A stretch of DNA of 58,555 nt from a virus. Under the pieces are notes generated by a model that saw nothing but the letters and a program-made list of their open reading frames with translations, had not been told where the DNA came from and did no database searches. Position 1 is the first letter of the stretch. Each line of letters begins with the position of its first letter. The translations under genes were made by a program, and so were the position numbers. The stretch spans positions 1 through 58,555 of the IMG/VR virus record IMGVR_UViG_3300042691_014317; one strand, written 5' to 3'. Shown piece by piece: positions 12,205 to 32,010 of the stretch.

Positions 12205-12209
12205 AGATT

Positions 12210-12479
12210 ATGTACAGTAAAGAAGGTCGCGTAATTATTTACGACGAATCAAACAGTCGTACGGTTTCTAAAACGGATTCTATAGTCGATTCTGTTATAG
12301 ATAAGTTGATAAGTAGAGCAAATGCAGGAAAAAAGAAATACAACACAGATTTGGACAGAAATGATCTCAGTCTAAGCGAGTGGTTGACGCACCTTCAAGA
12401 GGAGCTTTTAGACGCAGCAAATTATATTGAAAAACTTAAAAAGGTTGTAGATGGCGAAAAGAGATCAACTAGCTATTAA
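12210..12479 (+). CDS. MazG-like / DUF550-type helical protein, 89 aa
   Basis: The C-terminal half, LSLSEWLTHLQEELLDAANYIEKLKK, carries the EExxD pattern common in small phage proteins of the all-alpha NTP pyrophosphatase group. The central KKYNTDLDRNDL also fits that group. It overlaps the RecB-like nuclease gene by 29 nt. Possible second dNTP-related activity besides the gene at 7249; assignment is tentative. Confidence 0.5.
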   Translation: MYSKEGRVIIYDESNSRTVSKTDSIVDSVIDKLISRANAGKKKYNTDLDRNDLSLSEWLTHLQEELLDAANYIEKLKKVVDGEKRSTSY

Positions 12480-13409: not shown

Positions 13410-13628
13410 ATGAAACACACAGTAAAAAGAACGATCACTTCGGTTAAGATACCGGAGAATTTATACGAAGACTTTAAGATAATGTCAGTAAGATCGAAAA
13501 TTAACTTGCAAGAAATAGTAGAAAGGACAATATTCATGTACATTACGGATAGCAACTTCAGACAGAAAATTCATGAAAGGTACAGCACTTACTACACAGG
13601 ATCAGAGTTAATTAACGCAATAAAATAA
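13410..13628 (+). CDS. Ribbon-helix-helix-like protein, 72 aa
   Basis: N-terminal basic strand VKRTITSVKIPENLYEDFK followed by two helices with the spacing of Arc/CopG-type DNA-binding proteins. It is the first gene after the tandem motif and could regulate the downstream island. A short C-terminal extension rich in Tyr follows. No operator was identified. Confidence 0.5.
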   Translation: MKHTVKRTITSVKIPENLYEDFKIMSVRSKINLQEIVERTIFMYITDSNFRQKIHERYSTYYTGSELINAIK

Positions 13629-13638
13629 ACAAAACATA

Positions 13639-15081
13639 ATGAATAACGGTTACATCGAAAAAGACAAAAGAAAGAAAATTCTTCTCCTTTGTGACGATAT
13701 TCGTATGACATCTGGTATCTCGACAATGGCAAGAGAGATCGTCATAGGAACTTCGGGACACTACAATTGGGTCAACGTGGGAGGGGCAATGCAACACCCA
13801 GAAGCAGGAAAAAAATTAGACGTGTCTCAAGATACGTCCAATGTAGCAGGAATTCCTGACGCATCGGTGTTTTTGTATCCAACGAACGGTTACGGATCTC
13901 CTGAGCTAATTAGGCAACTAATAGAAATAGAGAAACCAGATGCTTTGATGATGTTCACAGATCCAAGGTATTGGGTGTGGTTGTTTCAAATGGAGAACGA
14001 GATTAGGAAAAAAATGCCTATTATCTATTTAAACATTTGGGATGATTTTCCCGCTCCTATCTACAACGAAGGATACTACGAGTCTTGCGACGCTCTGATG
14101 TCCATATCTAAACAGACCAAACTTATCAACGAATTGGTTCTCGGAGAAAAAGCAAAAGATAAAGTTTTGACTTACGTTCCCCACGGAATTAACGAAAAGC
14201 ACTTCTATCCTATCAGCGAATTCATGAAAGAAGATCAAGCTAAGCTAGAAGAAAAGAAGAAAAAGATCTTTGGAAAGGACATTCCAGAATTTGTGGTGTT
14301 CTATAACGCTAGGAACATCAGAAGAAAGTGTACATCGGATTTAATAGCGGCTTACGCTATGTTCTGTGATTCGATAGGAAAAGAAAAAGCTAAAAAGTGC
14401 GCGTTGTTGTTACACACTCAACCAGTAGATGAAAACGGTACGGATCTACCAGCTGTTATTAATCTGTTGTGCGATCCAGAATATCAAAAAGTTTATTTCT
14501 CAGAAGAAAGACTGGGAGTAGATGGAATGAATCTTCTCTATAACATAGGCGACGTAACGGCTTTGATATCTTCTAACGAAGGATTTGGATTGAGTCTAGC
14601 AGAATCTATGATGGCAGGTACCATGATCATAGCTAACGTAACCGGAGGAATGCAAGATCAGATGAAGTTTTTGGACGAAGAGGGTAAGTGGTTTACTCCA
14701 AGCAAAAAAGTTCCATCTAATCACTTTGGAAAATACAAAGAACACGGAGAATGGGCGGTGCCAGTTTTTCCAACCAACATAAGCATAGTGGGATCGATTC
14801 CGACTCCATATATCTACGATGATCGTTGTGATTTCAGAGATGTGGCAAAAGCTATAGAAGAAGTGTATCAACTAAGTCCTGAAGAAAGAACCAATAAAGG
14901 ACTGAAAGGTAGAGATTGGGTTACGTCTGACGAATCTATGATGAGCGCTAGGTTGATGTGTGAAAATGTAGCAAGCTCTATCGATGAAACTTTTAAAAAT
15001 TTCAAACCCAGAAAGTCTTTCGAATTGATTAAGACAGAGAAAATACAAAGAAAAGCAATTAAACACCCATTAGTATATTAA
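13639..15081 (+). CDS. GT-B glycosyltransferase (GT4-like), 480 aa
   Basis: Two-domain glycosyltransferase. The N-terminal Rossmann domain begins KILLLCDDIRMTSGISTMA. The C-terminal donor domain contains SSNEGFGLSLAESMMAG (about residues 314-330), the EX7E motif of retaining GT4 enzymes. No membrane span, so it acts in the cytoplasm. First large enzyme of the island and contiguous with the next GT-B gene (1-nt gap). Donor and acceptor are unknown; DNA, virion protein or a lipid-free glycan are all possible. Confidence 0.85.
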   Translation: MNNGYIEKDKRKKILLLCDDIRMTSGISTMAREIVIGTSGHYNWVNVGGAMQHPEAGKKLDVSQDTSNVAGIPDASVFLYPTNGYGSPELIRQLIEIEKPDALMMFTDPRYWVWLFQMENEIRKKMPIIYLNIWDDFPAPIYNEGYYESCDALMSISKQTKLINELVLGEKAKDKVLTYVPHGINEKHFYPISEFMKEDQAKLEEKKKKIFGKDIPEFVVFYNARNIRRKCTSDLIAAYAMFCDSIGKEKAKKCALLLHTQPVDENGTDLPAVINLLCDPEYQKVYFSEERLGVDGMNLLYNIGDVTALISSNEGFGLSLAESMMAGTMIIANVTGGMQDQMKFLDEEGKWFTPSKKVPSNHFGKYKEHGEWAVPVFPTNISIVGSIPTPYIYDDRCDFRDVAKAIEEVYQLSPEERTNKGLKGRDWVTSDESMMSARLMCENVASSIDETFKNFKPRKSFELIKTEKIQRKAIKHPLVY

Positions 15082-15082
15082 T

Positions 15083-16438
15083 ATGAAACAATATTGCGTA
15101 ATATCAGCCCCAGTTGATACGTACTCAGGTTACGGAAGCAGAGCTAGAGATCTAGTAAAAGCTATTTATGAATTAAAAGGACAAGAGTGGCACATAGAAA
15201 TTATAAGCCAGAGATGGGGATCCACTCCATGGGGATACATAAAAGATCACAAAGAATCTTGGGGATTTTTAGAAGATCTTATCAATAAGACAGGTCAACT
15301 TCATAAACAACCAGACGTGTGGATGCAGGTTACCGTGCCTAACGAATTTCAACCGGTAGGAAAATACAACATCGGATTTACTGCTGGAATAGAAACTACG
15401 ATTTGCGATCCCAGTTGGATAGACGGAGTTAACAGAATGAATTTAACTTTGGTGTCTTCAAATCACGCTAAACAGGTATTTCAACAGTCTTCATTCCAGC
15501 AACAAGACGATAAGGGTCAAGTAGTCAGACAAATTAAGTTAGAAAAGCCAGTGGAGGTTTTGTTCGAAGGAGTTGATCTAAATAAGTATTTTTTCTTGGA
15601 AGACGAAGACCTAGAAGAAACAGATTTGGTTTTAGAACTAGACGAGATAAAAGAGGATTTTTGCTATTTGGTTTTTGGTCACTGGTTGCAGGGAGATTTT
15701 GGACAGGATAGAAAAAACATAAGCGGAACAGTTAAATTGTTTTTAGAAACCTTTAAAGACAAGAAAAACAAACCCGCGCTTGTACTAAAAACATCTGGCG
15801 CAGGATCAAGCATATTAGACAGAAATTCTATATTGGAAAAAATAGATGGTATCAAAAAATCTATAGATTCAAAAGACCTTCCTAATGTGTATCTGCTTCA
15901 TGGAGATATGGAAGATTTTGAAATAAATAACCTCTACAACCATCCAAAAATAAAGTGTATGCTTTATCTCGGACACGGAGAAGGTTACGGAAGACCTCTA
16001 TTGGAATTTAGTGTGGTTAAAAAACCGATAATAGCCTCAGGTTGGTCAGGTCATGTAGATTTCCTTTCTAAAGAGTACGCTTGTTTAGTGCAAGGAGAAG
16101 TAAAGCAAATTCACCCTTCATCAGTAGTTCAAAACATGCTTATTCCTGAATCTGGTTGGTTTTACGCAGACGAAAAGCAAGCTCAGACTTATATAAAAGA
16201 TGTCCACGAAAAATACGATAAATATCTGACCATAGCAAAAAGACAGTCTAGAAAGAGTAGAGCAGAATTCTCTTTGGAAGAAATGAAAATTTCTTTGGAG
16301 CAATACTTGTCTTTCGTTCCAAAGGTTCAAGAGTTAAAATTGCCAACTTTGAAAAAACCAGAACTTCCCAAACTAGAATCCGCAAAAGCACCCAGTTTAA
16401 ATAAGATAGAGTTACCTAAACTTAAAAAAGTAGAGTAA
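15083..16438 (+). CDS. GT-B glycosyltransferase with Lys/Pro-rich C-terminal tail, 451 aa
   Basis: GT4-like enzyme. The N-terminal part begins YCVISAPVDTYSGYGSRARD; the donor site contains LGHGEGYGRPLLEFSVVKKP (about residues 297-316), an EX7E relative. After the catalytic domains comes a roughly 35-residue tail of repeated LPKL / KKPELPKL units, basic and Pro-rich. That tail is unusual for a glycosyltransferase and may be a linker or a contact for an acidic partner. Its last base is shared with the next start (TAATG). Confidence 0.82.
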   Translation: MKQYCVISAPVDTYSGYGSRARDLVKAIYELKGQEWHIEIISQRWGSTPWGYIKDHKESWGFLEDLINKTGQLHKQPDVWMQVTVPNEFQPVGKYNIGFTAGIETTICDPSWIDGVNRMNLTLVSSNHAKQVFQQSSFQQQDDKGQVVRQIKLEKPVEVLFEGVDLNKYFFLEDEDLEETDLVLELDEIKEDFCYLVFGHWLQGDFGQDRKNISGTVKLFLETFKDKKNKPALVLKTSGAGSSILDRNSILEKIDGIKKSIDSKDLPNVYLLHGDMEDFEINNLYNHPKIKCMLYLGHGEGYGRPLLEFSVVKKPIIASGWSGHVDFLSKEYACLVQGEVKQIHPSSVVQNMLIPESGWFYADEKQAQTYIKDVHEKYDKYLTIAKRQSRKSRAEFSLEEMKISLEQYLSFVPKVQELKLPTLKKPELPKLESAKAPSLNKIELPKLKKVE

Positions 16439-16821
16439 TGAATAGTAGAGACTTCGTAATTTGGCTTAAGGGATTTACAGAGGCGTGTAACGATTATACT
16501 GCGACACCAAAGCAGTGGGATCGTATCAAGGAAGTTTTAGAAAATGTAGAAGATTACAACGATAATCCTGGCATAGATGTTGAGATCGATGACGGCTGGA
16601 ATGATTGGTATCAAAAACAACCGCAAATCAACAGAGATACACCTTTATCAGGATCTATATCAACAGTTTCTTTGTGTGTAACCAGCGGATCATCGGGTAC
16701 TTTTTACACCACTAAAGTATGGAACGATCAAATGGGAAATTGGCACTATACCAATTATCCAGAAGGAACGGGAGGATACTATCACGCATCTAATAACAAA
16801 AAACAACAATTAAATGACTGA
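16438..16821 (+). CDS. Conserved phage-type hypothetical protein, 127 aa
   Basis: The N-terminal motif NSRDFVIWLKGFTEACNDYT...KQWDRIKEVL is a pattern common in phage proteins of unknown function (F-x-x-WLxGF...LTxxQ). The C-terminal half is Gly/Ser/Tyr-rich and low in charge. It overlaps the next gene by 8 nt. It interrupts the sugar enzymes and does not look catalytic. Confidence 0.65.
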   Translation: MNSRDFVIWLKGFTEACNDYTATPKQWDRIKEVLENVEDYNDNPGIDVEIDDGWNDWYQKQPQINRDTPLSGSISTVSLCVTSGSSGTFYTTKVWNDQMGNWHYTNYPEGTGGYYHASNNKKQQLND

Positions 16822-17254
16822 TAAATTAACAGATTGTCCGTTGTGCAATCAGCTGGGCGCTGTATACACTACACCAATAAATGAATTTCACAGTTCTTAT
16901 CTTTGCTTGGGATGCGGATTCTGTTCTAACGATCTGATGAGAGAGGGTGAATTTGATTTTGAACAGTACGAGTCAGAGCTTCCTCAGCTTTATATCGATG
17001 CGAAAAGAGTAGATTCTGATGGAAAAGTTTGGTATCCTAACACCGTAAACATACCTGAAAAGGGCACGGTTTTTCTTAACGGTCCAAGCGTAGAAGAATC
17101 CAAGTGGTCAGCTATACGCAGTGTAAAACTCACCAAAGAAGAAAAGAAAAATCCTAAGTTTAAAGGAAAAACACATAAGTCGGATTCAAACACGCTCCAG
17201 GATTTTGATGGAGACTATCTGGACGCATTGGAATACATAGGCATATCATTATAA
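16814..17254 (+). CDS. Zinc-ribbon hypothetical protein, 146 aa
   Basis: N-terminal CPLC (Cys8, Cys11) pairs with CLGCGFC (Cys31, Cys34, Cys37) as a zinc ribbon. The rest, with NIPEKGTVFLNGP and a Lys-rich segment, resembles a conserved unknown of large T4-like phages. Soluble. Lies in the island between GT-B and GT2 genes without obvious sugar-related motifs. Confidence 0.6.
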   Translation: MTDKLTDCPLCNQLGAVYTTPINEFHSSYLCLGCGFCSNDLMREGEFDFEQYESELPQLYIDAKRVDSDGKVWYPNTVNIPEKGTVFLNGPSVEESKWSAIRSVKLTKEEKKNPKFKGKTHKSDSNTLQDFDGDYLDALEYIGISL

Positions 17255-17257
17255 GAC

Positions 17258-17875
17258 ATGACAATAAGTTACGCCATAACAGCCCATAACGAACACAGGG
17301 AACTAGAAAGATTGCTAGAAATGATGACCACTCAGATCAGACCAGAAGATGAGATCGTGATTCAACTAGATAAAACGGCAACAGCAGAAGTCAGATCAAC
17401 CTGTTTTGATTTTGGTAGAGCTAATTTAAGAGTGGTAGAGTTTCCTCTAAACGGAGACTTTGCCGCTTTTAAAAATAATCTTAGCAAAGAGTGTTTAAAG
17501 GATTATATTTTTCAAATAGACGCAGACGAATATCCTCATCCGTATTTAATTCAATCACTTGATGATATTGTTTCTTACAATCAAACTATTGATGTATTTT
17601 TAACTCCTAGAATTAACACAGTCGAAGGTCTAACTCAACAACATATAGATAAGTGGAGATGGAATGTTAATGAACAAGGTTGGGTAAACTTTCCAGACTA
17701 TCAATGGAGAATATGGAAAAACAAGAAAGGCATTCATTGGATAAATAAAGTGCACGAAAGGTTAAATGGATTTCAACAGTATTCCTTACTTCCTGAATTG
17801 CAAGAATATTGTCTATTTCACCCTAAGGATATCAAAAGACAAGAGAGACAAAATAATTTTTATTCAACGCTATGA
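17258..17875 (+). CDS. GT-A glycosyltransferase, family 2-like, 205 aa
   Basis: Begins ISYAITAHNEHRELERLLE, the nucleotide-binding start of GT2 enzymes. The metal-binding DxD is in FQIDADEYP (around residues 88-96). A C-terminal RWNVNEQGWVNFPDYQWRIW region follows, seen in GT2 proteins of the WaaE/KdtX type. Inverting transferase, cytoplasmic. Stop and next start overlap (ATGA). Confidence 0.8.
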   Translation: MTISYAITAHNEHRELERLLEMMTTQIRPEDEIVIQLDKTATAEVRSTCFDFGRANLRVVEFPLNGDFAAFKNNLSKECLKDYIFQIDADEYPHPYLIQSLDDIVSYNQTIDVFLTPRINTVEGLTQQHIDKWRWNVNEQGWVNFPDYQWRIWKNKKGIHWINKVHERLNGFQQYSLLPELQEYCLFHPKDIKRQERQNNFYSTL

Positions 17876-18711
17876 ACAGTCCAATAACTTTTTGCATATC
17901 TACATATAACAATCTTAACTATCTCAAGATAGCAATAGATTCAGTTAGAAAGAATAGTTTTTTCTCAGAGGCTCCATTGATCATTCACGCAGAAAATTGT
18001 ACAGACGGAACCAATGAGTGGCTATCAGAAAATCAAAGCAAATACAACTTCGATTTTTACACAGAAAACAACGAAGCTCCAGTAGGAATAGGAGGAGGAA
18101 TGAACTTTTGCGCGAATAAAGTGAAAACAGAATATATAATGTTTTTACATTCGGACTTTTACGTGAGTAAAAATTGGGATCTTGCTTGTTACGAAGAGAT
18201 ACAAAAGCATGCACAGCCTACTTGGGTATTTAGTCACAGAGTAGAACCTGATATGTTCGGTAGTCCGCAAAGACCGGGCACAGTAATAGTACCAAAAGAT
18301 GCTTTTGGAGCTTACCACTACGACTTTGAAAGAGAATCGTTTGAACAATACGCAAGAGAGTTTGTAGAGTTAAATGATTTCACTATTCCCAAAGCAGAAG
18401 GCGTAAGCGGACTAATTAGAAAATCAGACTGGGATAGGATAGGAGGAAACGATCCAATATTTGCTCCCGCTAGTTGGGAAGATATGGATCTATTTTTAAG
18501 AATGATAAACGAAGGATATCAATTTTTGCTGACATCAAAATCAGTGGTGTGGCACTTCGGAGCAAGAGGCAGCCACAGATTGGAAGAAAACAACGGACAA
18601 ACTTCAGAAAGACAAAGAAGAGCGGAGTTTGAAAACGCAAAAAAGTGGTTAAACAAGTGGGGAAAAATGCCTCAGTTCGACAGTTTTGGAATGATAAAAA
18701 AGTTTAATTAA
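17872..18711 (+). CDS. GT-A glycosyltransferase, family 2, 279 aa
   Basis: Typical GT2 order: ITFCISTYNNLNYLKIAIDSV at the N-terminus, the metal-binding HSDFYVS segment (near 94-100), and the acceptor-side motif SWEDMDLFLRM (near 201-211). No membrane span, unlike lipid-linked polysaccharide synthases. It overlaps the previous gene by 4 nt. Confidence 0.85.
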   Translation: MNSPITFCISTYNNLNYLKIAIDSVRKNSFFSEAPLIIHAENCTDGTNEWLSENQSKYNFDFYTENNEAPVGIGGGMNFCANKVKTEYIMFLHSDFYVSKNWDLACYEEIQKHAQPTWVFSHRVEPDMFGSPQRPGTVIVPKDAFGAYHYDFERESFEQYAREFVELNDFTIPKAEGVSGLIRKSDWDRIGGNDPIFAPASWEDMDLFLRMINEGYQFLLTSKSVVWHFGARGSHRLEENNGQTSERQRRAEFENAKKWLNKWGKMPQFDSFGMIKKFN

Positions 18712-18713
18712 AT

Positions 18714-19538
18714 ATGAACAAGTATACAGTAGGTATTATCGGAAACGGATTTGTTGGAGAAGCTCAAGCTTTTACTTTTTCTCCAACCTCTAATATAAAA
18801 ATATACGACAAAGATCCTCTTAGATCAATACACACTCTAGAGGATACGCTAGAATCAGATTTCATTTTTGTTTGCGTTCCCACTCCTATGAAAACAGACG
18901 GATCACAAGATTTGTCTTTTATAGAGGACGTATTTTCTAAATGCAAGCCAGGTCCAGTATACATCATAAAGTCAACAGTAGAACCAGGAACTACCAAATA
19001 CTTAAATGAAAAATATAAGGAATTAAGTATTATATTCTCTCCTGAATTCCTGACAGAGAGGACTTCTAAATTAGATTCTATGACGCAGGCTAGAATTATT
19101 TTTGGAGGAGAAAAGGAGATTTGCGAAAAAGCTAAAGAGCTTTTTGAAAATAGATTCATGAACAGACATTTCATAATCACCGATTCTACAACTGCTGAGT
19201 TTGTTAAATACATGAACAACACATATTTCGCAGCGAAAGTATCTTTGATGAACGAATTTTATAGATTGGCTACGTTGTTGGATGTAAACTGGAAAGAAGC
19301 ACTGCACGGATTTGCTTCTGACGGTAGAGTAGCTGATTCTCACTTAAACGTTCCAGGACCAGACGGAAAATTGGGATTCGGAGGAACTTGTTTTCCTAAA
19401 GACATAAACGCATTAATTAACTTATCAAATAAATTAGGAGTTAAGATGAATGTTTTAGAAGGAGCTTGGAAAACTAATCTAGAAGTTAGACCAGAACAAG
19501 ACTGGAAAGAATTGAAAAATAGGGCAATATCAAAATAA
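18714..19538 (+). CDS. UDP-glucose/GDP-mannose dehydrogenase family protein, short form, 274 aa
   Basis: NAD-binding start VGIIGNGFVGEA and the signature STVEPGTTKYL. The catalytic segment GFGGTCFPKD contains the nucleophile Cys226, so the core two-step oxidation of a UDP-hexose to a uronic acid should be possible. At 274 aa it lacks most of the C-terminal nucleotide-sugar-binding domain of cellular enzymes (about 390-450 aa). It may be a minimal viral form or act on another substrate. Supplies a uronic-acid-type donor if active. Confidence 0.82.
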   Translation: MNKYTVGIIGNGFVGEAQAFTFSPTSNIKIYDKDPLRSIHTLEDTLESDFIFVCVPTPMKTDGSQDLSFIEDVFSKCKPGPVYIIKSTVEPGTTKYLNEKYKELSIIFSPEFLTERTSKLDSMTQARIIFGGEKEICEKAKELFENRFMNRHFIITDSTTAEFVKYMNNTYFAAKVSLMNEFYRLATLLDVNWKEALHGFASDGRVADSHLNVPGPDGKLGFGGTCFPKDINALINLSNKLGVKMNVLEGAWKTNLEVRPEQDWKELKNRAISK

Positions 19539-19547
19539 AAATAAAAA

Positions 19548-20207
19548 ATGAAAACATTAGAGCAAATCGCAAATCATTATGCCACAGACAAGAGAGAGTC
19601 TGATCATAATTACACAGTACACTACCAAGACTATTTTGAATCTTTAAGATTTGAAAAATTAAATGTAGTAGAGATCGGAATATTGAATCATCCCAACAAA
19701 GCGAGTAGACCTTTTGAAGGAGCTTCTATACTTCTATGGAAAGAATACTTTGAAAACTCCACTATTCACGGAATAGATATAAATGATCACTCTGGTTTAA
19801 CTCAAGATCGAGTCAATATCTACATCGCAGATCAAGGAAACAGGAATCAACTCGACGATGTATTTAAGAATTTTGAAGCCGATATAATTATCGATGACGG
19901 AAGTCATTACATGCATCATCAACAGATATCCTTTGGTCATCTATTCAAGTATCTAAAATCAGGAGGTTTATATATAATAGAAGATCTCCACACATCCCAT
20001 CCTAAACCACCATTTCCTCCATTGGGATTTCAGTTGTCAGAAAATGATACCAGAACTTTAGATATGCTACAAGAATATTGCGAGTCAAAAAAGATAGAAA
20101 GTATTTTTATGAATGACTCTGAAATTAAATATCTTGAAGACAACATCGACTTCTGTGATATTAGAATGGGAAGAGAATCAGAAATAGCCTTCATCAGAAA
20201 AAAATAA
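19548..20207 (+). CDS. Class I SAM-dependent methyltransferase, 219 aa
   Basis: Pattern YATDK...YTVHYQDYFESLR...VVEIGI...GIDIND...ADIIIDDGSH resembles macrocin/sugar O-methyltransferases of natural-product and surface-glycan clusters. The SAM loop is VVEIGI and the acidic metal-site-like IIDDGSH follows. A sugar O-methyltransferase in this island is a good fit, but the substrate is inferred. Confidence 0.75.
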   Translation: MKTLEQIANHYATDKRESDHNYTVHYQDYFESLRFEKLNVVEIGILNHPNKASRPFEGASILLWKEYFENSTIHGIDINDHSGLTQDRVNIYIADQGNRNQLDDVFKNFEADIIIDDGSHYMHHQQISFGHLFKYLKSGGLYIIEDLHTSHPKPPFPPLGFQLSENDTRTLDMLQEYCESKKIESIFMNDSEIKYLEDNIDFCDIRMGRESEIAFIRKK

Positions 20208-20210
20208 AAT

Positions 20211-20753
20211 ATGTCTTATACATTTACTTCAAAAAATAAAAATTACGCTAATAACGAAGATCTGTCTCATTCACCACAGCATAGAGATAGACTTAACGAA
20301 ATTTTTAAAAACTCCAAGACTATACTAATGGTGGGGTGGAGATACGATTCGGATTTTAGCTTCGTAGATTTTATGATAGAAGAGTCTAAGGATCTGACTA
20401 TAGTGGAGATATACGAACCAAATACAAAAAACGTTAGAAAAGAAGTAACCATCCACTGCTCAGATATTCTTGATTTTGATATAGAAAAAGAATACGATCT
20501 GCTATTGTGGCAACACGGACCAGAACACGTATTCAAATCAGAAGTCTTAGATTTCGTAAAGAAAGTCAGCGACAAATTCAAACACATAGTTTTTGAAACT
20601 CCATACGGTCACAATCCGCAAGGAGAAATGTATGGAAATATATACGAAACTCATGTTTCTGAGTGGGAAGAAAAAGACTATACAGATCTAGGTTTCAACT
20701 ACGTTAAATACGCAGGAGTTAATAACGATGCTTTTATAATAGGATATAAATGA
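20211..20753 (+). CDS. Methyltransferase-fold protein, 180 aa
   Basis: TILMVGWRYDSDFSF may be a SAM loop and EKEYDLLLWQHGPEHV the strand-4 region; the C-terminal FETPYGHNPQGEMYGNIYE segment is characteristic of a group of unknown SAM-fold proteins. Methylation of a sugar is plausible. It overlaps the next gene by 4 nt. Confidence 0.55.
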   Translation: MSYTFTSKNKNYANNEDLSHSPQHRDRLNEIFKNSKTILMVGWRYDSDFSFVDFMIEESKDLTIVEIYEPNTKNVRKEVTIHCSDILDFDIEKEYDLLLWQHGPEHVFKSEVLDFVKKVSDKFKHIVFETPYGHNPQGEMYGNIYETHVSEWEEKDYTDLGFNYVKYAGVNNDAFIIGYK

Positions 20754-21628
20754 GTACGAAAATTTTATTTATCTCGCAAGCAGAATTACCAGATTTTCAA
20801 TCAGACATGGTTTTTCACGGACTAAGGTCTATATACGGAGAGAATTGTGTAGATCACAAAGAAATGTGGTACATGTATTCCGATACCAAATCAAAGTATT
20901 GGAATTCCAGAGTGCCTAACGGAGGAAATAGTTACGGTCGAGGTTTTACTTTGTACGGAAGACTTCCTAACATATCGGTTGATAGATCTAATTTGGTGCA
21001 AAGAATAAAAAATAAGGAGTTCGATAAGATAGTGTACGGATCTGTTCACAGGTGTTTGGATCACTTTGACGAAGTCGTAAAACACTACAGCCCAGAGAAC
21101 GTAGTTTTTATAGACGGAGAAGATCAAACTAACATAAAGGAAGAATTGCTGCAATTCGGAATTTATAGAAAGAGAGAACTTGTTTACAGTCAAAGCGAAA
21201 GACTAAAGCCGATCAATTTTTGCATTCCAAAAGAGTGTATCGTAGATCACGTTCCTGAGAAAACAAAAGAATACGGCACAGTAATTCCTGGAGACACTAC
21301 AACTTACATCTTTGATAAAGAAGACGAGTATCATCAAGACTATCAAAAGTCTTATTACGGAGTAACAACCAAAAAAGGAGGATGGGATTGTCTAAGACAC
21401 TACGAAATAATAATGAACGGATGTTTCCCTTACTTTCCTAATTTAGAAAGCTGTCCAAAAAATACCATGACGCTATTTCCAAAAAATCTCGTCTTAGAAA
21501 ACAACAGATCTTTGGAAAAAAATGGACTGTCGATAAACTACAAAGAGGAAACCATGAGGTTGCTTAAGTACGCGAAAAAGTATTTGACAACCGAGTACAC
21601 AGCAAAAATTATAATAGAAAACATATGA
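20750..21628 (+). CDS. Putative glycosyltransferase (GT-B, CgeB-like), 292 aa
   Basis: Rossmann-like start TKILFISQAELPDFQSDMV; a middle VVFIDGEDQTNI; a C-terminal KKGGWDCLRHYEIIMNGCFP that resembles the donor-side helix of exostosin/CgeB-like transferases. No transmembrane segment. Overlaps neighbours on both sides by 4 nt, so it is translationally coupled. Assignment is moderate. Confidence 0.55.
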   Translation: MSTKILFISQAELPDFQSDMVFHGLRSIYGENCVDHKEMWYMYSDTKSKYWNSRVPNGGNSYGRGFTLYGRLPNISVDRSNLVQRIKNKEFDKIVYGSVHRCLDHFDEVVKHYSPENVVFIDGEDQTNIKEELLQFGIYRKRELVYSQSERLKPINFCIPKECIVDHVPEKTKEYGTVIPGDTTTYIFDKEDEYHQDYQKSYYGVTTKKGGWDCLRHYEIIMNGCFPYFPNLESCPKNTMTLFPKNLVLENNRSLEKNGLSINYKEETMRLLKYAKKYLTTEYTAKIIIENI

Positions 21629-23986: not shown

Positions 23987-23987
23987 T

Positions 23988-24845
23988 ATGAACATACTTG
24001 TAACAGGCGGAGCAGGATTTGTAGGAACAAACTTAGTAAAAAAATTAGTAGAGCTAAATAACACGGTAGTAGTTATCGACAATTACAGCGCAGGAAAAGA
24101 AAGGAATCACATATCAGGAGCTACGTATATTAAAGGTCACACAAAAGACGTAAAAGATCTTTTATCGAAAAACGTCTTTGCTCCAGATATCGTATATCAT
24201 TTGGGTGAATATTCTAAAATAGCGCCTTCCTTCGAAGAGATCGATTCAGTGTTTAGTTATAACATCGAAGGAAGCTTTGCAATGCTTCAGTACGTAAAAG
24301 AAAAAAACATTCCTATCGTATACGCGGCTTCTTCTACCAGATTGGCAGATGAAGGAGAGAGTCATTCTCCGTATAGCTTTTTCAAGTCCACCATCGCAAA
24401 GTTAGTAAAAAACTACGCTGATTGGTATGGGATAAAATACAGCATATGCTACTTCTTCAATGTTTACGGAGAATATCAAGACACATGGGAAAATGAATGG
24501 CAAACAGTGTTAGGTATTTTTGAAACGCAATACAAAAACAATAGTCCTATTACAGTTGTAGGAGACGGAACACAAAGAAGAGATTTTACTTACGTAGGAG
24601 ACATAGTAAGTGGTCTAATAAAATCCTCAGAGAATTTTAAAAACGAAGAGTATCAGTTGGGAACCGGAAAAGACTACTCCATACTAGAAATCGCAAAGAT
24701 GTTCAGCGATAACATACAGTTCATTCCAGCTAGAAAAGGTGACAGAAAGAGAGGAATTGCAAACGTAGAAGACACCAAACAGAAATTGGGATGGAAAGCA
24801 GAAATGACTGTAGAAAACTGGATAAGCAAAATAAAAAACAACTAA
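23988..24845 (+). CDS. NAD-dependent sugar epimerase/dehydratase (extended SDR), 285 aa
   Basis: Extended short-chain dehydrogenase that rebuilds nucleotide sugars. NAD-binding VTGGAGFVGTNL (residues 4-15), active-site pair in SPYSFFKST (Tyr and Lys), and DGTQRRDFTYVGDI (about 186-199), the substrate-binding signature of UDP-glucose 4-epimerase relatives. The length of 285 aa is slightly short for GalE. The exact reaction (4-epimerase, 4,6-dehydratase or other) is not resolved. Confidence 0.85.
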   Translation: MNILVTGGAGFVGTNLVKKLVELNNTVVVIDNYSAGKERNHISGATYIKGHTKDVKDLLSKNVFAPDIVYHLGEYSKIAPSFEEIDSVFSYNIEGSFAMLQYVKEKNIPIVYAASSTRLADEGESHSPYSFFKSTIAKLVKNYADWYGIKYSICYFFNVYGEYQDTWENEWQTVLGIFETQYKNNSPITVVGDGTQRRDFTYVGDIVSGLIKSSENFKNEEYQLGTGKDYSILEIAKMFSDNIQFIPARKGDRKRGIANVEDTKQKLGWKAEMTVENWISKIKNN

Positions 24846-24847
24846 GT

Positions 24848-25546
24848 ATGAAGAATATTCCTATAGTGATATTGAACAAAGACAGATTGACTCCTCTAAT
24901 CCCTTTAGTTCAAGGATTAAAACAAAGAGGATACCACAACATAACTGTATTAGATAACCTTTCTACGTACGAACCTCTTCTTGCGTGGTACAAGTCGGAA
25001 GGCCTAGACGTATTTTATAACGATATACCGGAAACAAAGTACGATACAGGAACTCTATTCAGATTAGCATTTGAAATAAAACATCCTAAATTTGTAGATA
25101 TAGTCAAATCGCATTACGCGTTCACAGACTCTGATATCGTATTGGGAGAAAACTGTCCTGAGAATTTTATAGAACATCTTGTAACTATAAGAGATTCTCA
25201 AAACGTATCAAAAGCAGGACTGGCACTGAAGATAGATGATCTTCCTAAAAATCATCACACCGAAACAGTTATAAGACTAGAGTCTCCTCTGTGGTCAAAT
25301 AGAATAGAGAGTCCTACTTACGAAATGTATAGAGCGGCAATAGATACGACTTTCGCTGTGTACGGTCCGAATGAAACTCCACTATACAGCGAAAACTCTA
25401 TAAGAGTGGCTGGAGATTATACGGCCACCCATCGCCCATGGTACTACGAAATCGATAACATGCCAGATGATGAGAGATATTATCTAACCAAATTGGAAGC
25501 AGGAAAAGGACCCAATTACTCAATGATGATAAAACATACAATATAA
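24848..25546 (+). CDS. Putative GT-A glycosyltransferase, 232 aa
   Basis: Start at ATG 24848, 2 nt after the previous stop; an in-frame start at 24791 lies inside the upstream gene and is less likely. Begins IPIVILNKDRLTPLIPLVQG, with HNITVLDNLSTYEPLL and the metal-site-like FTDSDIVLGENCPENF (near residues 94-109). This pattern occurs in GT-A proteins of phages and bacteria. Soluble. Confidence 0.65.
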   Translation: MKNIPIVILNKDRLTPLIPLVQGLKQRGYHNITVLDNLSTYEPLLAWYKSEGLDVFYNDIPETKYDTGTLFRLAFEIKHPKFVDIVKSHYAFTDSDIVLGENCPENFIEHLVTIRDSQNVSKAGLALKIDDLPKNHHTETVIRLESPLWSNRIESPTYEMYRAAIDTTFAVYGPNETPLYSENSIRVAGDYTATHRPWYYEIDNMPDDERYYLTKLEAGKGPNYSMMIKHTI

Positions 25547-25549
25547 AAA

Positions 25550-26512
25550 ATGGAAAATAAAAAAATACTACTGATCGGCGGTACGGGCGCTTTAGGTAAA
25601 ACGTTAGTTAGAAGGTATCAATCGAAAAACGATATCTTAATTTTTAGCAGAGACGAGCATAAACACGTGGCGCTAATGTCTTCTGATTGGGTAAGTAAAG
25701 ATCGAGTGTCTTTTATGATAGGAGATGTCAAAGACAGAAATTCCATACTAAATGCAATAGATCTATTTAAGCCAGAGGTGGTAATTAATGCCGCCGCTAT
25801 AAAACACGTTCCGATCTGTGAAATAAATCCTTACGAGTCTGTAAACGTGAACATACTCGGTCACCAAAATCTGTTAGAGTGCATATCTAGAGCCAATCAC
25901 AAAATCGAAACCATAATATACGTATCCTCAGATAAAGCTTGTAAACCCATCAATGTGTACGGAATGAGCAAGGCTATATCAGAAAGACTGTATATAGAGT
26001 TTTCAAAAAAAGTGAAAGACGTGAAAGTATGCCTAGTGAGATATGGAAATGTATTAGAGTCTACAGGATCCGTGATTCCATACTTTAAAAAATTACTTTC
26101 TGAAAATAATACATTTCTTCCAATCACAGATTTTAGAATGACTAGGTTTTTGCTAACGTTGGACGAAGCAGTTAATTTGATAGAGTGGGCTTACAATTGC
26201 GAAGAGTCTAACGGATGTATAGCGATACCAAAAGTAGAGTCATTTAAGATAGAAGATGTAGCTCGAGCTCTCATTAAGGATCGCTTGGGAGATGAAAACG
26301 CCATTCAGTTGAAAGAGGTAGGAATAAGAAAAGGAGAAAAGTTACACGAAGAAATGATATCAGAAGAAGAATGGATGAGAGCGGTTGAACTAGAAAATTA
26401 TCTTATCACAGATAACATATTAAAAGCTGACGCAAAGTCTTATAACTCTTTTGATTCTTTAATGCCAAAAAATAAAGTATATTCATTCTTAAAACAAACT
26501 AACGTAATATGA
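25550..26512 (+). CDS. UDP-GlcNAc 4,6-dehydratase-like SDR (PseB/CapE type), 320 aa
   Basis: Soluble member of the FlaA1/PseB/CapE group. NAD-binding LIGGTGALGKTLVRRY, AAIKHVP (near 88-94), SSDKACKPINVYGMSKA (near 125-141) with the Tyr-Met-Ser-Lys active site. Such enzymes turn UDP-GlcNAc into a 4-keto-6-deoxy sugar, the first step toward FucNAc/QuiNAc or pseudaminic acid. It lacks the membrane domain of CapD/WbpM. It overlaps the next gene by 4 nt. No aminotransferase (PseC) was recognised in the island. Confidence 0.85.
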   Translation: MENKKILLIGGTGALGKTLVRRYQSKNDILIFSRDEHKHVALMSSDWVSKDRVSFMIGDVKDRNSILNAIDLFKPEVVINAAAIKHVPICEINPYESVNVNILGHQNLLECISRANHKIETIIYVSSDKACKPINVYGMSKAISERLYIEFSKKVKDVKVCLVRYGNVLESTGSVIPYFKKLLSENNTFLPITDFRMTRFLLTLDEAVNLIEWAYNCEESNGCIAIPKVESFKIEDVARALIKDRLGDENAIQLKEVGIRKGEKLHEEMISEEEWMRAVELENYLITDNILKADAKSYNSFDSLMPKNKVYSFLKQTNVI

Positions 26513-27066
26513 AACCAGTTCACTTGAGGAACGTTCCTCCTCCGCTAGAAACTTTTGATCACATAAACTTACTGCATTGGATAGCGGGATGGATAAAACC
26601 AGAAAGATATCTCGAATTGGGAGTCAGAGACGGAAGATGTTTTACTCAAGTTGCTCAATACTGCAATCAAGCAATCGCAGTTGATTGCGCACCCATACCT
26701 TTTCAATTGCCATACAATGCAACATACGAACAGATGTATACAGACGAATACTTTGAGAAAATAAAAAACTCTGGTGTTCAATTCGATATGGTATTCATAG
26801 ACGCTGATCATAGCTTTGAGCAATCTTACAAAGACTTTCTCAATGTTAAAGATTACGTAGTAGATAACGGATTCGTATTTTTTCATGACACGTATCCTTG
26901 TAACGAAGAGTTAACAAAGCCCGAATTTTGTAACGATTGTTATAAAACACCGATAGAAATAAGAAAAAACTTTCCTAACGAGTGGGAATTGGTTACCTTA
27001 CCATTCAATCCTGGAGTAACTATCTGCAAAAAAATATACGGAAAAAACTATTTGCCATGGATGTAA
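26509..27066 (+). CDS. Class I methyltransferase (Methyltransf_24-like), 185 aa
   Basis: SAM site YLELGVRDGRCFTQVA (about 34-49) and FDMVFIDADHSFEQSYKDF (about 91-109), the acidic IDADHSF block typical of the Methyltransf_24/cephalosporin-hydroxylase-like group. Probable O-methyltransferase on a sugar. It overlaps the next gene by 1-10 nt depending on the start. Confidence 0.75.
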   Translation: MKPVHLRNVPPPLETFDHINLLHWIAGWIKPERYLELGVRDGRCFTQVAQYCNQAIAVDCAPIPFQLPYNATYEQMYTDEYFEKIKNSGVQFDMVFIDADHSFEQSYKDFLNVKDYVVDNGFVFFHDTYPCNEELTKPEFCNDCYKTPIEIRKNFPNEWELVTLPFNPGVTICKKIYGKNYLPWM

Positions 27067-27779
27067 TGGTTTTGGGTCACAACGGAATGTTGGGCCACAT
27101 GGTTAGAAAGTATTTGTTGGATAAAAAATACAAGGTTTATACAACAGACCACAGATATCCTTCAGAGGAGTTTAAAAACGACGTTTTAAATTTCAAAGGA
27201 GATTACGTTATCAATTGCATCGGTGCTATACCCCAAAAAACAAAGAGTTTCGAGATAAATTTTGATCTACCAATTTGGTTAGAAAACAACGCGAACACTT
27301 GTATAGTACATCCAGGTACCGATTGCGAGATGGATGAAGACAGTTATGGAGTTTCAAAAAGATCCGCTAAGCTTTATTTAATTCAGCACGCGAAAAAAAC
27401 CAAGATAATAAAAGCTTCTATTATTGGACCTGAATTAAAGACGTATTCTAGCTTATTAGAATGGTTTTTAAGAAGTGAAAACGAAGTTCAAGGGTACAGC
27501 GGAGCAATGTGGAACGGAATAACTACGTACGAGTGGGCAAAACAGTGCGAAGTGTTAATAAACAATTGGAAAGATTACGACACAGAGACCATTGTGTACA
27601 GCGAATGCATATCGAAATACGATCTTTTACAGTGCATAAAAAAAGTATTTGACAAGGATATTATTGTCACTCCAAATGACAAAGTCAATATAAATAAATG
27701 CTTAACAGGAAAAATAAAGGCCATCGACATATTCAATCAATTATCAGATCTAAAAAACTATTACTATGATAGTAAATGA
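27057..27779 (+). CDS. RmlD/CapF-like SDR sugar reductase, 240 aa
   Basis: Start ATG 27057 (or 27066, which shares bases with the upstream stop) removes an implausible in-frame extension from 26982. VMVLGHNGMLGHMVRKYL is the NADPH site, DYVINCIGAIPQK the RmlD-like strand, and EDSYGVSKRSAK the Tyr/Lys active site. It resembles the 4-keto-reductase of dTDP-rhamnose or UDP-FucNAc pathways. With the PseB/CapE-like dehydratase it could make a 6-deoxy-hexosamine donor. Confidence 0.75.
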   Translation: MDVMVLGHNGMLGHMVRKYLLDKKYKVYTTDHRYPSEEFKNDVLNFKGDYVINCIGAIPQKTKSFEINFDLPIWLENNANTCIVHPGTDCEMDEDSYGVSKRSAKLYLIQHAKKTKIIKASIIGPELKTYSSLLEWFLRSENEVQGYSGAMWNGITTYEWAKQCEVLINNWKDYDTETIVYSECISKYDLLQCIKKVFDKDIIVTPNDKVNINKCLTGKIKAIDIFNQLSDLKNYYYDSK

Positions 27780-28473
27780 CCAAAGCTATTGTGTTTGTAT
27801 AGCTACGTATTCAAAAAGAAAGGATTACATTAAAAATCTAATAGAAGATATTAGAAAACAGAGCCAAGATATTCCGATCTATATATCTGTGAATTGCGAC
27901 TATAAAAAACAATTTGACAATGAGTATAGAAAATACATTTTGGAATTGGCCAGTAAGCACGAGAATGTGTACTTAACTTTTTATTTAAAGTTTAGAGGAT
28001 TATCTAGAATGTGGAATGATATGATTACAAACACTTGTTACGATAATTGTATAATAATAAACGATGATTCAGCAATAAAAAACAATTTTATATCCGATTT
28101 TATAAATCATAAAATATCTACAAACAACGAAACTATATTAAAGACCAACAACGGCTGGGCTTGTTTTATCGTCAATTATAAGTACATTAACTCTGTAGGA
28201 TTTTTTAACGAGAACTACATAGGCATAGGATTTGAAGACGCAGAATTTGTGAGAAGAACTCTTGAATATCCTGCATACATGACCGAAGATTTTGTTGATT
28301 TGAACATAGAAGCTCTTCATACATTTCCAACATGCGAAGATGATAACGTGACCGTAAAAGAGTATTCGTCTTTCAATAAACATATGATCAATAGCGGACA
28401 AATAGGCGGAGGAATCCATTTTAGACCTTTTGAACAACAGTACATAGATAACTACGATAAAATTTTTGGGTAA
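27766..28473 (+). CDS. GT-A glycosyltransferase, family 2-like, 235 aa
   Basis: Starts SYCVCIATYSKRKDYIKNLI and has CIIINDDSAIKNNF (DDS metal site, near residues 85-98), then GIGFEDAEFVRRT (ED-like acceptor block). Soluble. Overlaps the previous gene by 14 nt. Confidence 0.7.
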   Translation: MIVNDQSYCVCIATYSKRKDYIKNLIEDIRKQSQDIPIYISVNCDYKKQFDNEYRKYILELASKHENVYLTFYLKFRGLSRMWNDMITNTCYDNCIIINDDSAIKNNFISDFINHKISTNNETILKTNNGWACFIVNYKYINSVGFFNENYIGIGFEDAEFVRRTLEYPAYMTEDFVDLNIEALHTFPTCEDDNVTVKEYSSFNKHMINSGQIGGGIHFRPFEQQYIDNYDKIFG

Positions 28474-28474
28474 T

Positions 28475-29377
28475 ATGGTATTCTTTAACGAGTATTTTCA
28501 AGGTGTAGCAGAAGTAGAATTATTGGGATTCTCTTCAAAAAATCCAAGATACATACCAAAAGAATATCTAGATCAGGAAGTCTTTACGATATTCAGAACC
28601 TGTCATTCTTACGGAGACTGGGTTATCTTATCGGCAATGCCTAGATTGATAAAACAAAAGTATCCAAATTCTAAAGTGATAATCCCTTCTCCAGATTGCA
28701 TATTGAAATACTTCTCTCCTTCAAATTGGAAAAATAAACACGATAATCCCTTTAACAACGTTATCGAAGTGTTTGCTAATAATCCATACGTGGATGGCAT
28801 GATAGACGAAATTCCCAAAAACTTTCCAGTTTATCACGATCACTTTAGGTTGTACGAAGAGAACAACCCTCATATTCCGCTGGTAAAACAGATGTTGAGT
28901 TTTTGGAGGTTTTCAGAAGAGGAGATGCAAGACTGTGAACCCGAACTTTATTGGTCAAAAGAAGAGATTGATCAAGGAAACAACATTATCAAAAACCTAT
29001 TTGAAGGAAAGGAATTTGGATTCTTATACTTAGACGATTCTTTTTTTTACTCCATAAACATGGAAGAATCCGAGATACAGAGAAGAAGAGACATAATTCA
29101 AAGAGAAATAAGTAAACACGACGTACCGTGGATTTATTTTTCAGGGAAAGATAAATTTCGTTATATTACAAATAATGAAGTGTTAGACGTTAGCAGCATA
29201 GAAATGTCTCTAAGAGTTCAAAACTACGTAAAGTCCCATGCAAAAGTTATTATAGGGCATCAAGGAGGATACGGAACGGATTGCATGTCTAGATATTCTA
29301 AATGCTATGTAGTACCTCTAACTAAAAATCAAGTCAGAGAACACATTCAATTAAAAACAACCTACTTACACGACTAA
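28475..29377 (+). CDS. GT-B glycosyltransferase, heptosyltransferase (GT9)-like, 300 aa
   Basis: ATG 28475 is used; a TTG at 28466 would overlap the previous gene. The segment YGDWVILSAMPRLIKQKYPN (about 49-68) resembles the GD-hl-sxPAl-al start of ADP-heptose:LPS transferases, and AKVIIGHQGGYGTDCMSRYS (about 261-280) the GTxxHlA donor-loop region. Soluble. Donor unknown. Confidence 0.62.
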   Translation: MVFFNEYFQGVAEVELLGFSSKNPRYIPKEYLDQEVFTIFRTCHSYGDWVILSAMPRLIKQKYPNSKVIIPSPDCILKYFSPSNWKNKHDNPFNNVIEVFANNPYVDGMIDEIPKNFPVYHDHFRLYEENNPHIPLVKQMLSFWRFSEEEMQDCEPELYWSKEEIDQGNNIIKNLFEGKEFGFLYLDDSFFYSINMEESEIQRRRDIIQREISKHDVPWIYFSGKDKFRYITNNEVLDVSSIEMSLRVQNYVKSHAKVIIGHQGGYGTDCMSRYSKCYVVPLTKNQVREHIQLKTTYLHD

Positions 29378-29378
29378 C

Positions 29379-30101
29379 ATGCTAATCGCAACGCTTAACC
29401 ACAATTTACCAGAATTAACAGATAACTTGGTGAATCAATTGAAAAAAGATCCCATGTTTAATCAATGTGAGTTGATGGTAGTGGACAACGGATCTTCTGA
29501 ATCTCTGGCAAAAAGTACAACGCACAGACTTGAAGAAAACATATTTTTTGGTGGAGGGTTTAATGTCGTGCTCGATTACTTTTTAAGTACGAACCACGAT
29601 TACCTGTACTTTCTAAACAACGATTTGATCTTTCACGGACCTTCTTTTATAACAACATCTCTTAAAGAGGCCAAAGAATCCAATTCAGCAGTTTATTCTC
29701 CGAGTGTTATAAACGCTTCGATAGACCAGTGTCATTGGAAGCAAATGTGGAACTGGGGTAAAGGAATTAGAAATGTTAAGTGGATAGACTTTCAGTGTCC
29801 CATGCTGAGAAGAGACATATTGGAAAAAATAGGTCAGTTTCCGCAAGAGCTGATGTTTGGATGGGGATTAGATTTTTATGCCGGATGCGTAGCAGAAGAG
29901 TTTGGGTTTTCTACAACAGTGTCGGATAACAATACGATATGTCACTTAAACTCTCAAACTTTTAAGCAAAATAAAATAAACATTGGTGTCCAAGAGTTCT
30001 GCAGAAACGCAGAGTTCAATATGAATTCCTACTTTAGCGGTAGTAAGTACAAGACCATATATTCTCAATTTAGGTATTACGGAGAAAGTTACGCTCAATA
30101 A
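29379..30101 (+). CDS. GT-A glycosyltransferase, family 2-like (rhamnosyltransferase-type), 240 aa
   Basis: N-terminal LIATLNHNLPELTDNLVNQL with CELMVVDNGSSES, FFGGGFN (near 49-55), FLNNDLIF (metal site) and GWGLDFYAGCVAEEFG. These four blocks in order are the typical GT2 rhamnosyltransferase pattern. Soluble. Confidence 0.8.
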   Translation: MLIATLNHNLPELTDNLVNQLKKDPMFNQCELMVVDNGSSESLAKSTTHRLEENIFFGGGFNVVLDYFLSTNHDYLYFLNNDLIFHGPSFITTSLKEAKESNSAVYSPSVINASIDQCHWKQMWNWGKGIRNVKWIDFQCPMLRRDILEKIGQFPQELMFGWGLDFYAGCVAEEFGFSTTVSDNNTICHLNSQTFKQNKINIGVQEFCRNAEFNMNSYFSGSKYKTIYSQFRYYGESYAQ

Positions 30102-30129
30102 TCAAAAACAGAAAAATAAAAACGCAAGA

Positions 30130-30837
30130 ATGAAGATACAAGTAAAAGACAGATCATTTCAAGTAGGATCTTTTTACGATCTATACAAAGACGTGTACAA
30201 TTGTTGGACCATTGAAGGCACAGAAGAGAATCAAGAGATGACTTGTTTCATAGAACAAACGAAAGATAAAAAAAGTTTGATCGACATAGGAGCATTGTTC
30301 GGAGTGTTTTCTTTGTTTTTCTCAGGACAAGACAGAGTGTCTCACGCTGTAGACGGTTCTCACGAAGGCATGTTACAGTTATTACAAAATCTGTGCAAAA
30401 ATCCAGATAAAAAAATATACCCTCATAAAGCATTGATGGGAGATAAGAACTCTTTGACTTCTTATTGGACAAAACCAGGAGAACTGCACTCTTTGTCCTT
30501 TCAGGGAAACGATAGTATAATCATGTTGACGGTTGATTACTTTTGCCAACTTTACGAAGTGGTTCCGGACGTAATGAAAATAGACACAGAAGGATTCGAA
30601 GTTAAAATTTTAAAAAATGCAGATCACGTGTTGTCGAATTACAAACCTATGATATTCTTAGAAGGTCACAACAACTTCGTTTACAATTACGGGGATACAG
30701 TAGAGGATATAGTGAGCATAGCAAAAAAATACGATTACAAAGTATTCGATCTCTCTAACAACCAGATCACTTACGAAGAATATCTTAATAGGTTAAAAAA
30801 CAAAAGCATAGACTCAACAAGAACTTATTGGAAATAA
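30130..30837 (+). CDS. FkbM-family methyltransferase, 235 aa
   Basis: SAM-dependent O-methyltransferase of the Methyltransf_21 type. LIDIGALFGVFSLFF is the SAM loop and DVMKIDTEGFEVKILKNADH (about 151-170) the diagnostic FkbM block. Family members methylate sugars or polyketides. Here a terminal or branch sugar of the island product is the likely target. Confidence 0.85.
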   Translation: MKIQVKDRSFQVGSFYDLYKDVYNCWTIEGTEENQEMTCFIEQTKDKKSLIDIGALFGVFSLFFSGQDRVSHAVDGSHEGMLQLLQNLCKNPDKKIYPHKALMGDKNSLTSYWTKPGELHSLSFQGNDSIIMLTVDYFCQLYEVVPDVMKIDTEGFEVKILKNADHVLSNYKPMIFLEGHNNFVYNYGDTVEDIVSIAKKYDYKVFDLSNNQITYEEYLNRLKNKSIDSTRTYWK

Positions 30838-30840
30838 ATT

Positions 30841-32010
30841 ATGGTTAGTATAATTATACCCAGTCACAACAACTTAAGACACTTAAAGAACGCATACAAG
30901 AGCGTTAGAAAGCACGCGCCTGACATAGAACTAGTATTGATAGATGATGCTTCTACCGATGGAACTTTGGAGTGGATGAGAGACATGTATAGGGAAGATC
31001 ACAACTTAGTTGTTCTAAAATCAGACGAAAGGAAGGGTCACACGTATCACTACGATTACGGAATAAGCAAAGCAAAGGGAGATGTGGTGGGAATCATGCA
31101 TGCTGACATGATCATGGGTCCAAACTATGTGAAGAACATGCTTAAGCACCTAAAACCGGGCGTAGTGGTAGCAGGAACTAGAGTTGAACCTCCTTTGCAT
31201 CCACCCGGTAACGAGAAGATTATTCAAAATTTCGGTGTTGATTTTGACGATCTAGACATTCTTAGTTTTGAAAAATTTTGCATCAAGATGCAAAGCTTGT
31301 ACGAAGGAGAAACGTCTAACGGAATGTTTGCGCCGTGGTTTATCTATAAAGAGGACTTCTTGAGGATAGGTGGTCACGATCAGATATACGCACCGTTCCC
31401 TTACGAGGACTCAGATATATTCGAAAGGTGGATATTGAAGGGATACAAGTTAATCCAGTCTAGAGATGCACTGGTTTATCACCTGACGTGCAGGGGTCAT
31501 CGCTGGACTGATCAAGTAGGTAAGGACGATGATTACTTTAAGAAAGCTTCTCAGCGCGCGGCAAGAGAATACCTGCGCAAATGGGGATCTTGGATAAAGA
31601 ACGATGAATATCAACATCCCATAATAAAACCCAAGTACGATATAGGATTTGTGGTAGAAAACTGTAACATTCATTATTTGGCATTTTTAGAACCAATATG
31701 CGACACTATATACATTTCTGATGCTGATATCATAAAAGACTACGTAAAATACGAACAACCCAATACTTATTTCGATCTAAAAGAAAGGATTAAACACACC
31801 AGCGAAAACAAAAATAACGATATACTCGTAGAGTTTGATCTGAAAAAATTAACCAGCAGTGATTTTCAGATCATACAGCAATTTCCAGAGATAATAAAAC
31901 AATCAGGTCAAATAGGGAATTTACAACTTGGATTCTTTTCATTCAAGATATTCTCTATGAAATCCAAAGAGAAAGACATGATTCTACCTATAAAATCTTA
32001 TTTTTCCTGA
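30841..32010 (+). CDS. GT-A glycosyltransferase, family 2, with C-terminal extension, 389 aa
   Basis: GT2 blocks: VSIIIPSHNNLRHLKNAYKS, LVLIDDASTDGTLEWM, MHADMIMG (metal site) and PYEDSDIFERWILKGY. After about residue 265 comes a further segment (KYDIGFVVENCNIHYLAFLE onward) without a recognised family, perhaps an acceptor-recognition domain. Last gene of the island. Confidence 0.82.
   Translation: MVSIIIPSHNNLRHLKNAYKSVRKHAPDIELVLIDDASTDGTLEWMRDMYREDHNLVVLKSDERKGHTYHYDYGISKAKGDVVGIMHADMIMGPNYVKNMLKHLKPGVVVAGTRVEPPLHPPGNEKIIQNFGVDFDDLDILSFEKFCIKMQSLYEGETSNGMFAPWFIYKEDFLRIGGHDQIYAPFPYEDSDIFERWILKGYKLIQSRDALVYHLTCRGHRWTDQVGKDDDYFKKASQRAAREYLRKWGSWIKNDEYQHPIIKPKYDIGFVVENCNIHYLAFLEPICDTIYISDADIIKDYVKYEQPNTYFDLKERIKHTSENKNNDILVEFDLKKLTSSDFQIIQQFPEIIKQSGQIGNLQLGFFSFKIFSMKSKEKDMILPIKSYFS

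Follow-up and report, generated by a model that had tools for sequence, protein, structure and literature searches.

The window analysed here is a 58.6-kb fragment of virus record IMGVR_UViG_3300042691_014317, and it carries a glycosylation island of 23 open reading frames (ORFs), all on the plus strand between positions 13639 and 32010, with -16 to +28 nt between neighbours. The original prediction had described a tightly packed, one-directional island with about 13 glycosyltransferases (GTs), four methyltransferases and four nucleotide-sugar enzymes, and both the arrangement and the total agree with what is found. Pfam or PHROG profiles support nine of the GTs (ORFs 01, 02 just below the cut-off, 05, 06, 12, 13 as DUF6492, 19, 21, and 23), three methyltransferases (08, 17, and 22) and all four nucleotide-sugar enzymes (07, 14, 16, and 18); five further ORFs were assigned by eye, with 10, 11, 15, and 20 looking GT-like. 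Position 13410, given earlier as the start of the island, is where a small conserved ORF of 72 amino acids (aa) begins, a possible regulator that recurs in relatives, while the enzyme ORFs themselves start at 13639. The coordinates of all features are listed in Table 1.

By its sequence, the window phage is a member of a widespread Immutovirus-like group, and its hosts are Flavobacterium-like bacteria. The phage's DNA polymerase shares 56% identity with the counterpart in Flavobacterium phage vB_FspM_immuto (Immutovirus immuto, 160 kb), and the window and this genome (NC_055915) have the gene order PolA-GroES-GroEL ... exonuclease-GT4a-GT4b-04-05 ... GT2-23 in common. No nucleotide-level match of the window to named phages was found. 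Relatives of GT4a (ORF 01) are present on at least 596 viral contigs vs 13 bacterial or archaeal assembly contigs. The latter probably represent phage DNA binned with bacterial or archaeal genomes, because the six that were inspected all show the phage gene order, and the core GTs appear to be phage-specific. Microcystis phage Mel-JY01 (L193) contains the exonuclease, GuaB, GT4a, GT4b, ORF 05 and a GT2 resembling ORF 23, and a distant GT4a is present in Rhodothermus phage RM378. In Mel-JY01, GT4a is split over two adjacent ORFs (11442-12933), which reflects either a split enzyme or a sequencing error.

The island has a constant opening. In loci that were found via the upstream exonuclease, and hence not selected by their GT content, GT4a follows in all 29 with at least 2.5 kb of downstream sequence and GT4b (ORF 02) in all 21 with at least 4.5 kb. 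Both are present in each of 60 non-redundant loci, and ORF 04, a protein with a Zn-ribbon-like Cys pattern, in 56 of these. GT4a and GT4b are usually followed by ORF 04 and then by GT2-05; the latter was a selection criterion for the 60-locus set, so that its frequency is given for 75 loci collected without that criterion (Table 1). The island is closed by GT2-23 in 20 of the 23 loci that reach its end (18 identified by script; the other two are the window and L177, in which a tail fibre comes next). The AlphaFold2 (AF2) model of GT4a has a pLDDT (predicted local distance difference test) score of 88.9, and its structure matches in the PDB are GT4 enzymes including chlorovirus B736L, the NY-2A version of which is also the best PDB match by sequence (6.5e-13). 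For ORF 04 the model is confident as well (pLDDT 93.8); it has no PDB neighbour and one viral match of unknown function. Metal binding by this protein may be dispensable, because two relatives have lost some of its four Cys residues.

Between the core and the closing gene the content changes from phage to phage. Every island gene of the window outside the core and closing set is present in at most 15% of the 60 loci, and the 542 cassette ORFs of these loci cluster at 40% identity into 315 families, including 230 singletons. Pairs of loci with 80-90% identical GT4a proteins, some of which derive from overlapping records, have 77.5% of their upstream genes in common (13 pairs) vs 9.5% of their cassette genes (31 pairs). 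In L177 the 3' flank is nearly identical to that of the window (d37198 at 93%) and the cassette is different; L184 shows the reverse, with genes 16 and 17 at 76 and 72% identity beside a GT2-23 at 52%. As read from these comparisons, the turnover of the cassette genes resembles that of a serotype cassette, and they are exchanged between phages. Islands of relatives encode aminotransferases, GDP-mannose dehydratase and GDP-fucose synthase-like enzymes. RfbH, an enzyme of the 3,6-dideoxyhexose pathway, is also found in relatives' cassettes with scores above the curated cut-off (L047, 5507-6823, and similar ORFs).

The claim that the island consists of soluble enzymes only and lacks membrane genes for glycan export holds in the window as well as in its relatives. 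A hydropathy scan detected no transmembrane (TM) segment in any island ORF, and the same scan finds three to four in the neighbouring ORFs at 10320 and 10808. Among the 542 cassette ORFs there is no multi-pass membrane protein; one dehydratase-like protein in L058 has two TM segments. A protein with five TM segments in L157 (11687), considered as a cassette member, lies outside the island, beyond its end after d37198. Neither PF02397, the family of initiating sugar-phosphate transferases, nor the flippase family PF01943 was found in any of 21 phage records; of 14 control genomes, nine and 13, respectively, contained them. No polymerase was found either, as judged only through the lack of multi-pass proteins in the cassettes.

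Table 1. Island genes of the window and the small ORF preceding them, with the evidence for each assignment.
Feature	Position	Strand	Evidence
72-aa ORF ahead of island	13410..13628	+	sub-threshold ribbon-helix-helix match PF12651 (E 0.066); before GT4a in most relatives
01 GT4a, GT-B GT4-type GT, invariant first core gene	13639..15081	+	PF00534 1.2e-7; 60/60 non-redundant loci
02 GT4b, second core GT	15083..16438	+	PF00534 9.6e-5, under curated cut-off; 60/60 loci
03 small protein, near relatives only	16438..16821	+	phrog_28500 3e-4; 5/60 loci
04 core protein, Zn-ribbon-like Cys pattern	16814..17254	+	alignment; 56/60 loci
05 core GT2	17258..17875	+	PF00535 3.9e-8; 71/75 loci
06 GT2, cassette	17872..18711	+	PF00535 2e-12; 9/60 loci
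07 compact NDP-sugar (UDP-glucose type) dehydrogenase without C-terminal domain	18714..19538	+	PF03721, PF00984; TIGR03026 2.7e-48, below cut-off
08 methyltransferase	19548..20207	+	phrog_21658 2e-19
09 methyltransferase-like by eye	20211..20753	+	no significant profile
10 probable GT by eye	20750..21628	+	no profile or PDB match; homologues here only in phage islands
11 probable GT by eye	21625..22434	+	no profile match
12 GT8-like	22431..23186	+	PF01501 1.3e-4, just below cut-off
13 DUF6492/Stealth-CR2-like transferase	23186..23986	+	PF20102 1.1e-8
14 NDP-sugar epimerase/dehydratase	23988..24845	+	PF01370 5.5e-37
15 probable GT-A by eye	24842..25546	+	no profile match; 42-54% homologues in L046, L072, L183, L184, L190
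16 UDP-GlcNAc 4,6-dehydratase, inverting type	25550..26512	+	PF02719 6e-79; PseB model 1.9e-76, below cut-off
17 methyltransferase	26509..27066	+	PF13578 4.9e-10
18 short RmlD/CapF-like reductase	27051..27779	+	PF01370 3.9e-5; adjoins 16-like gene also in L073, L184
19 GT2/galactosyltransferase-like	27766..28473	+	phrog_29879 1.5e-6
20 probable GT-B (GT9-like by eye)	28466..29377	+	alignment; no profile or PDB match
21 GT2	29379..30101	+	PF00535 1.7e-4, just below cut-off
22 FkbM-type methyltransferase	30130..30837	+	PF05050 1.1e-8
23 GT2, conserved closing gene	30841..32010	+	PF00535 3.5e-23; island end in 20/23 loci

PDB searches with ORFs 10, 18, and 20 gave no match, and the best PDB match of ORF 16 is Megavirus Mg534 (4TQG, 4e-57). 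The dehydrogenase encoded by ORF 07 is only 274 aa long and keeps the GGTCFPKD motif; copies of 273-277 aa are present in L182 and L076, and it is therefore a compact phage form and not a chance truncation. Downstream of the island lies a tail fibre gene with an S74 chaperone domain (32331-35120). The original prediction had set this fibre and adhesin genes beside the island. The fibre is indeed adjacent in the window, and it is found at the island end only there and in L177; in L184 and L190 it is about 4 kb away, and in most relatives the island end is directly followed by d36195, d36507, and d37198, with no fibre. Because the adjacency is lineage-specific, it was rejected as evidence for function. 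The adhesin genes are doubtful, as the large ORF at 39685 encodes a TonB-dependent-receptor-like outer-membrane protein. This barrel with plug domain (39685-41937) overlaps a lipoprotein-like ORF (41934-43136) in a stretch of low GC content, and the gene pair is probably host-derived and unusual in a phage. Distant homologues were detected in five uncultured phage records, and a literature search on phage-encoded TonB receptors returned no paper.

Soluble enzymes leave several candidates for the acceptor of the glycan. The original prediction had named virion proteins or DNA, and DNA had to be weighed because the window carries a dCMP-hydroxymethylase-like gene (8000-8647) beside genes for a dCMP deaminase and a MazG-like pyrophosphohydrolase: the GTs would then place a sugar chain on hydroxymethylcytosine (hmC) or another modified base, as in extended T4-type or arabinosyl-hmC systems. 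The best PDB match of the hydroxymethylase is the T4 enzyme 1b49 (3e-20), and both the Cys and the FxND-motif Asp are kept. The three genes form a predicted hmC cluster at 7249-9125, with the pyrophosphohydrolase at 7249, the deaminase at 7564 and the hydroxymethylase at 8000. The distribution of such genes was compared in 26 records with the GT core, all of which were reached via GT4a- or exonuclease-anchored loci of the Immutovirus-like group. Hydroxymethylase is present in only eight of them and DpdA (7-deazaguanine) in 11, including the complete Immutovirus genome; no record has both, and neither was found in seven, among them fragments of 131 and 197 kb. This mutual exclusion suggests that the DNA modification chemistry is swapped, and because the GT core is the same across hmC, 7-deazaguanine and neither-pathway phages, a modified base probably does not serve as its acceptor. 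Moreover, no cassette GT of the window is conserved across the hydroxymethylase-positive phages. The TET/JBP family PF12851 was found in none of 14 records, and the control genomes were likewise silent. To our knowledge, ten or more GTs also exceed what known DNA glycans involve, which counts against this explanation. The way in which hydroxymethylase and DpdA are distributed thus speaks against DNA glycosylation as the main function of the island, which we regard as quite unlikely. Of the acceptors originally proposed, the protein is left, as one that we infer.

The GTs might instead remodel the host surface by extending undecaprenyl-linked host intermediates (O-antigen or Bacteroidota O-glycan), which the flippase and ligase of the host would export, for example to block superinfection. 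The general O-glycan of Bacteroidota likewise combines an inner core that is shared with an outer part that differs between species (PMC12871550), and cassette enzymes such as RfbH are of the O-antigen type. However, none of the islands examined encodes an initiating transferase, a flippase or another multi-pass protein, the core GTs seem confined to phages, and the core is also found in a phage of Microcystis, a host from another phylum. Host-surface remodelling is therefore considered unlikely. Soluble GTs can also modify cytoplasmic proteins, which speaks for a different soluble acceptor, such as host cytoplasmic proteins glycosylated during takeover, or for the release of free oligosaccharides. 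A hypervariable cassette of ten GTs would be unexpected for the inactivation of a conserved host target, since such diversity usually comes from surface-exposed glycans, and this explanation appears very unlikely.

A virion-exposed phage protein would be the simplest acceptor to fit both soluble enzymes and diversifying distal sugars. We consider it somewhat probable that the island is a phage-encoded, serotype-like locus for the glycosylation of virion proteins, with a conserved glycan base and a switchable distal part. Gene content, core conservation, cassette turnover, the lack of membrane export genes and independence from DNA-base chemistry are the observations on which this reading is built. 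Sugar donors would be made in the cytoplasm, with ORF 07 providing a UDP-glucuronate-type donor and ORF 16 a UDP-4-keto-6-deoxy-HexNAc that is perhaps reduced by ORF 18; ORF 14 is placed at the level of its superfamily. GT4a, GT4b, and GT2-05, together with the Zn-ribbon protein 04, would start and build the conserved base on a phage protein in the host cytoplasm. The dehydrogenase, dehydratase, reductase, epimerase, GTs and methyltransferases of the cassette would then supply rare 6-deoxy, uronic or amino sugars and assemble the strain-specific distal part; GT2-23 and O-methylation probably complete it. We guess the order in which the sugars are added from how conserved the genes are, the methyl cap is likewise presumed, and host surface binding, antibodies or predators may drive the diversity of the glycan.

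Several points weigh against virion-protein glycosylation. Four GTs and one methyltransferase (ORF 09) are recognized by eye only, sugars on lipid carriers are substrates of GT4-type enzymes too, and a flippase of the host could stand in for a phage one. In the relatives, the island shows no linkage to any acceptor gene, and it sits among replication and lysis genes, outside the late structural block. A more far-reaching proposal, which we make only tentatively, is that true glycan serotypes exist in the tailed phages of this group: a constant, phage-specific GT core may start a chain resembling an O-antigen on virion proteins, with no lipid carrier involved, and the exchange of whole cassettes may switch virion surface chemistry independently of the remaining genome. 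If so, strain-specific sugar coats exist in many Bacteroidota phages of aquatic habitats, as core and cassette are present in hundreds of environmental phage contigs. Such coats would affect the encounters of virions with host surfaces, grazers and antibodies, and the islands would be a source of lipid-independent glycan-building enzymes. Glycosylation of virion proteins is directly testable, because Immutovirus immuto is cultured together with its host, Flavobacterium sp. LMO8.

The mycobacteriophage system of Freeman et al. 2023 reportedly has few GTs and no large sugar-synthesis cassette. According to PMC12619734, phage virion glycosylation is known from small systems such as mycobacteriophages, in which the capsid and tail-tube proteins are glycosylated by phage GTs. 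For the moraphages, large Bacteroidota phages of 200-307 kb, four putative core-genome GT orthogroups have been listed, with the choice between a DNA and a virion function left open and variable islands noted (PMC12619734). The core status of GTs is therefore not new; unlike in the window, these GTs are not tied there to a core-plus-cassette island (PMC12619734). O-antigen and Bacteroidota O-glycosylation loci resemble the island in their conserved frame, variable sugar genes, methylation and use of dideoxy, amino and deoxy sugars. They differ in their need for lipid carriers, flippases and ligases, none of which is found in the islands examined; for the general O-glycan of Bacteroidota, a GT locus assembles the outer part on undecaprenyl phosphate (PMC12871550).

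Clustered viral GT and nucleotide-sugar genes, which profiles detect in the window and its relatives, are shared with the chlorovirus and Megavirinae kind of system, and so is the independence from membrane export genes of the virus's own. PMC10117803 describes clusters of 6 to 33 sugar and GT genes in Megavirinae; most lie at one conserved position in the genome, their content depends on the clade, and the rare sugars are of bacterial type. The island is similar in having clade-specific rare-sugar genes in a fixed place, in addition to the match of ORF 16 to Mg534; Megavirinae are amoeba viruses, however, their fibril glycans have been measured, and a constant GT4a-GT4b-GT2 opening is not described in the text consulted. 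In chloroviruses the core oligosaccharide is conserved in all and the outer sugars are virus-dependent, and a methyltransferase domain has been proposed to methylate the terminal rhamnose (PMC5408694, PMC7826918). Glycosylation of the major capsid protein of chlorovirus PBCV-1 resembles what is proposed here, being virus-encoded, cytoplasmic and carried out by mostly soluble GTs with a conserved core and a variable periphery, and the best PDB match of GT4a comes from this group. Chloroviruses differ in their eukaryotic algal hosts, in having GTs that do not lie in one exchangeable island, and in a glycan and acceptor that are proven, those of the window being predicted. What appears to be new here is the organisation into a constant core and a variable cassette, together with the evidence against a base acceptor.

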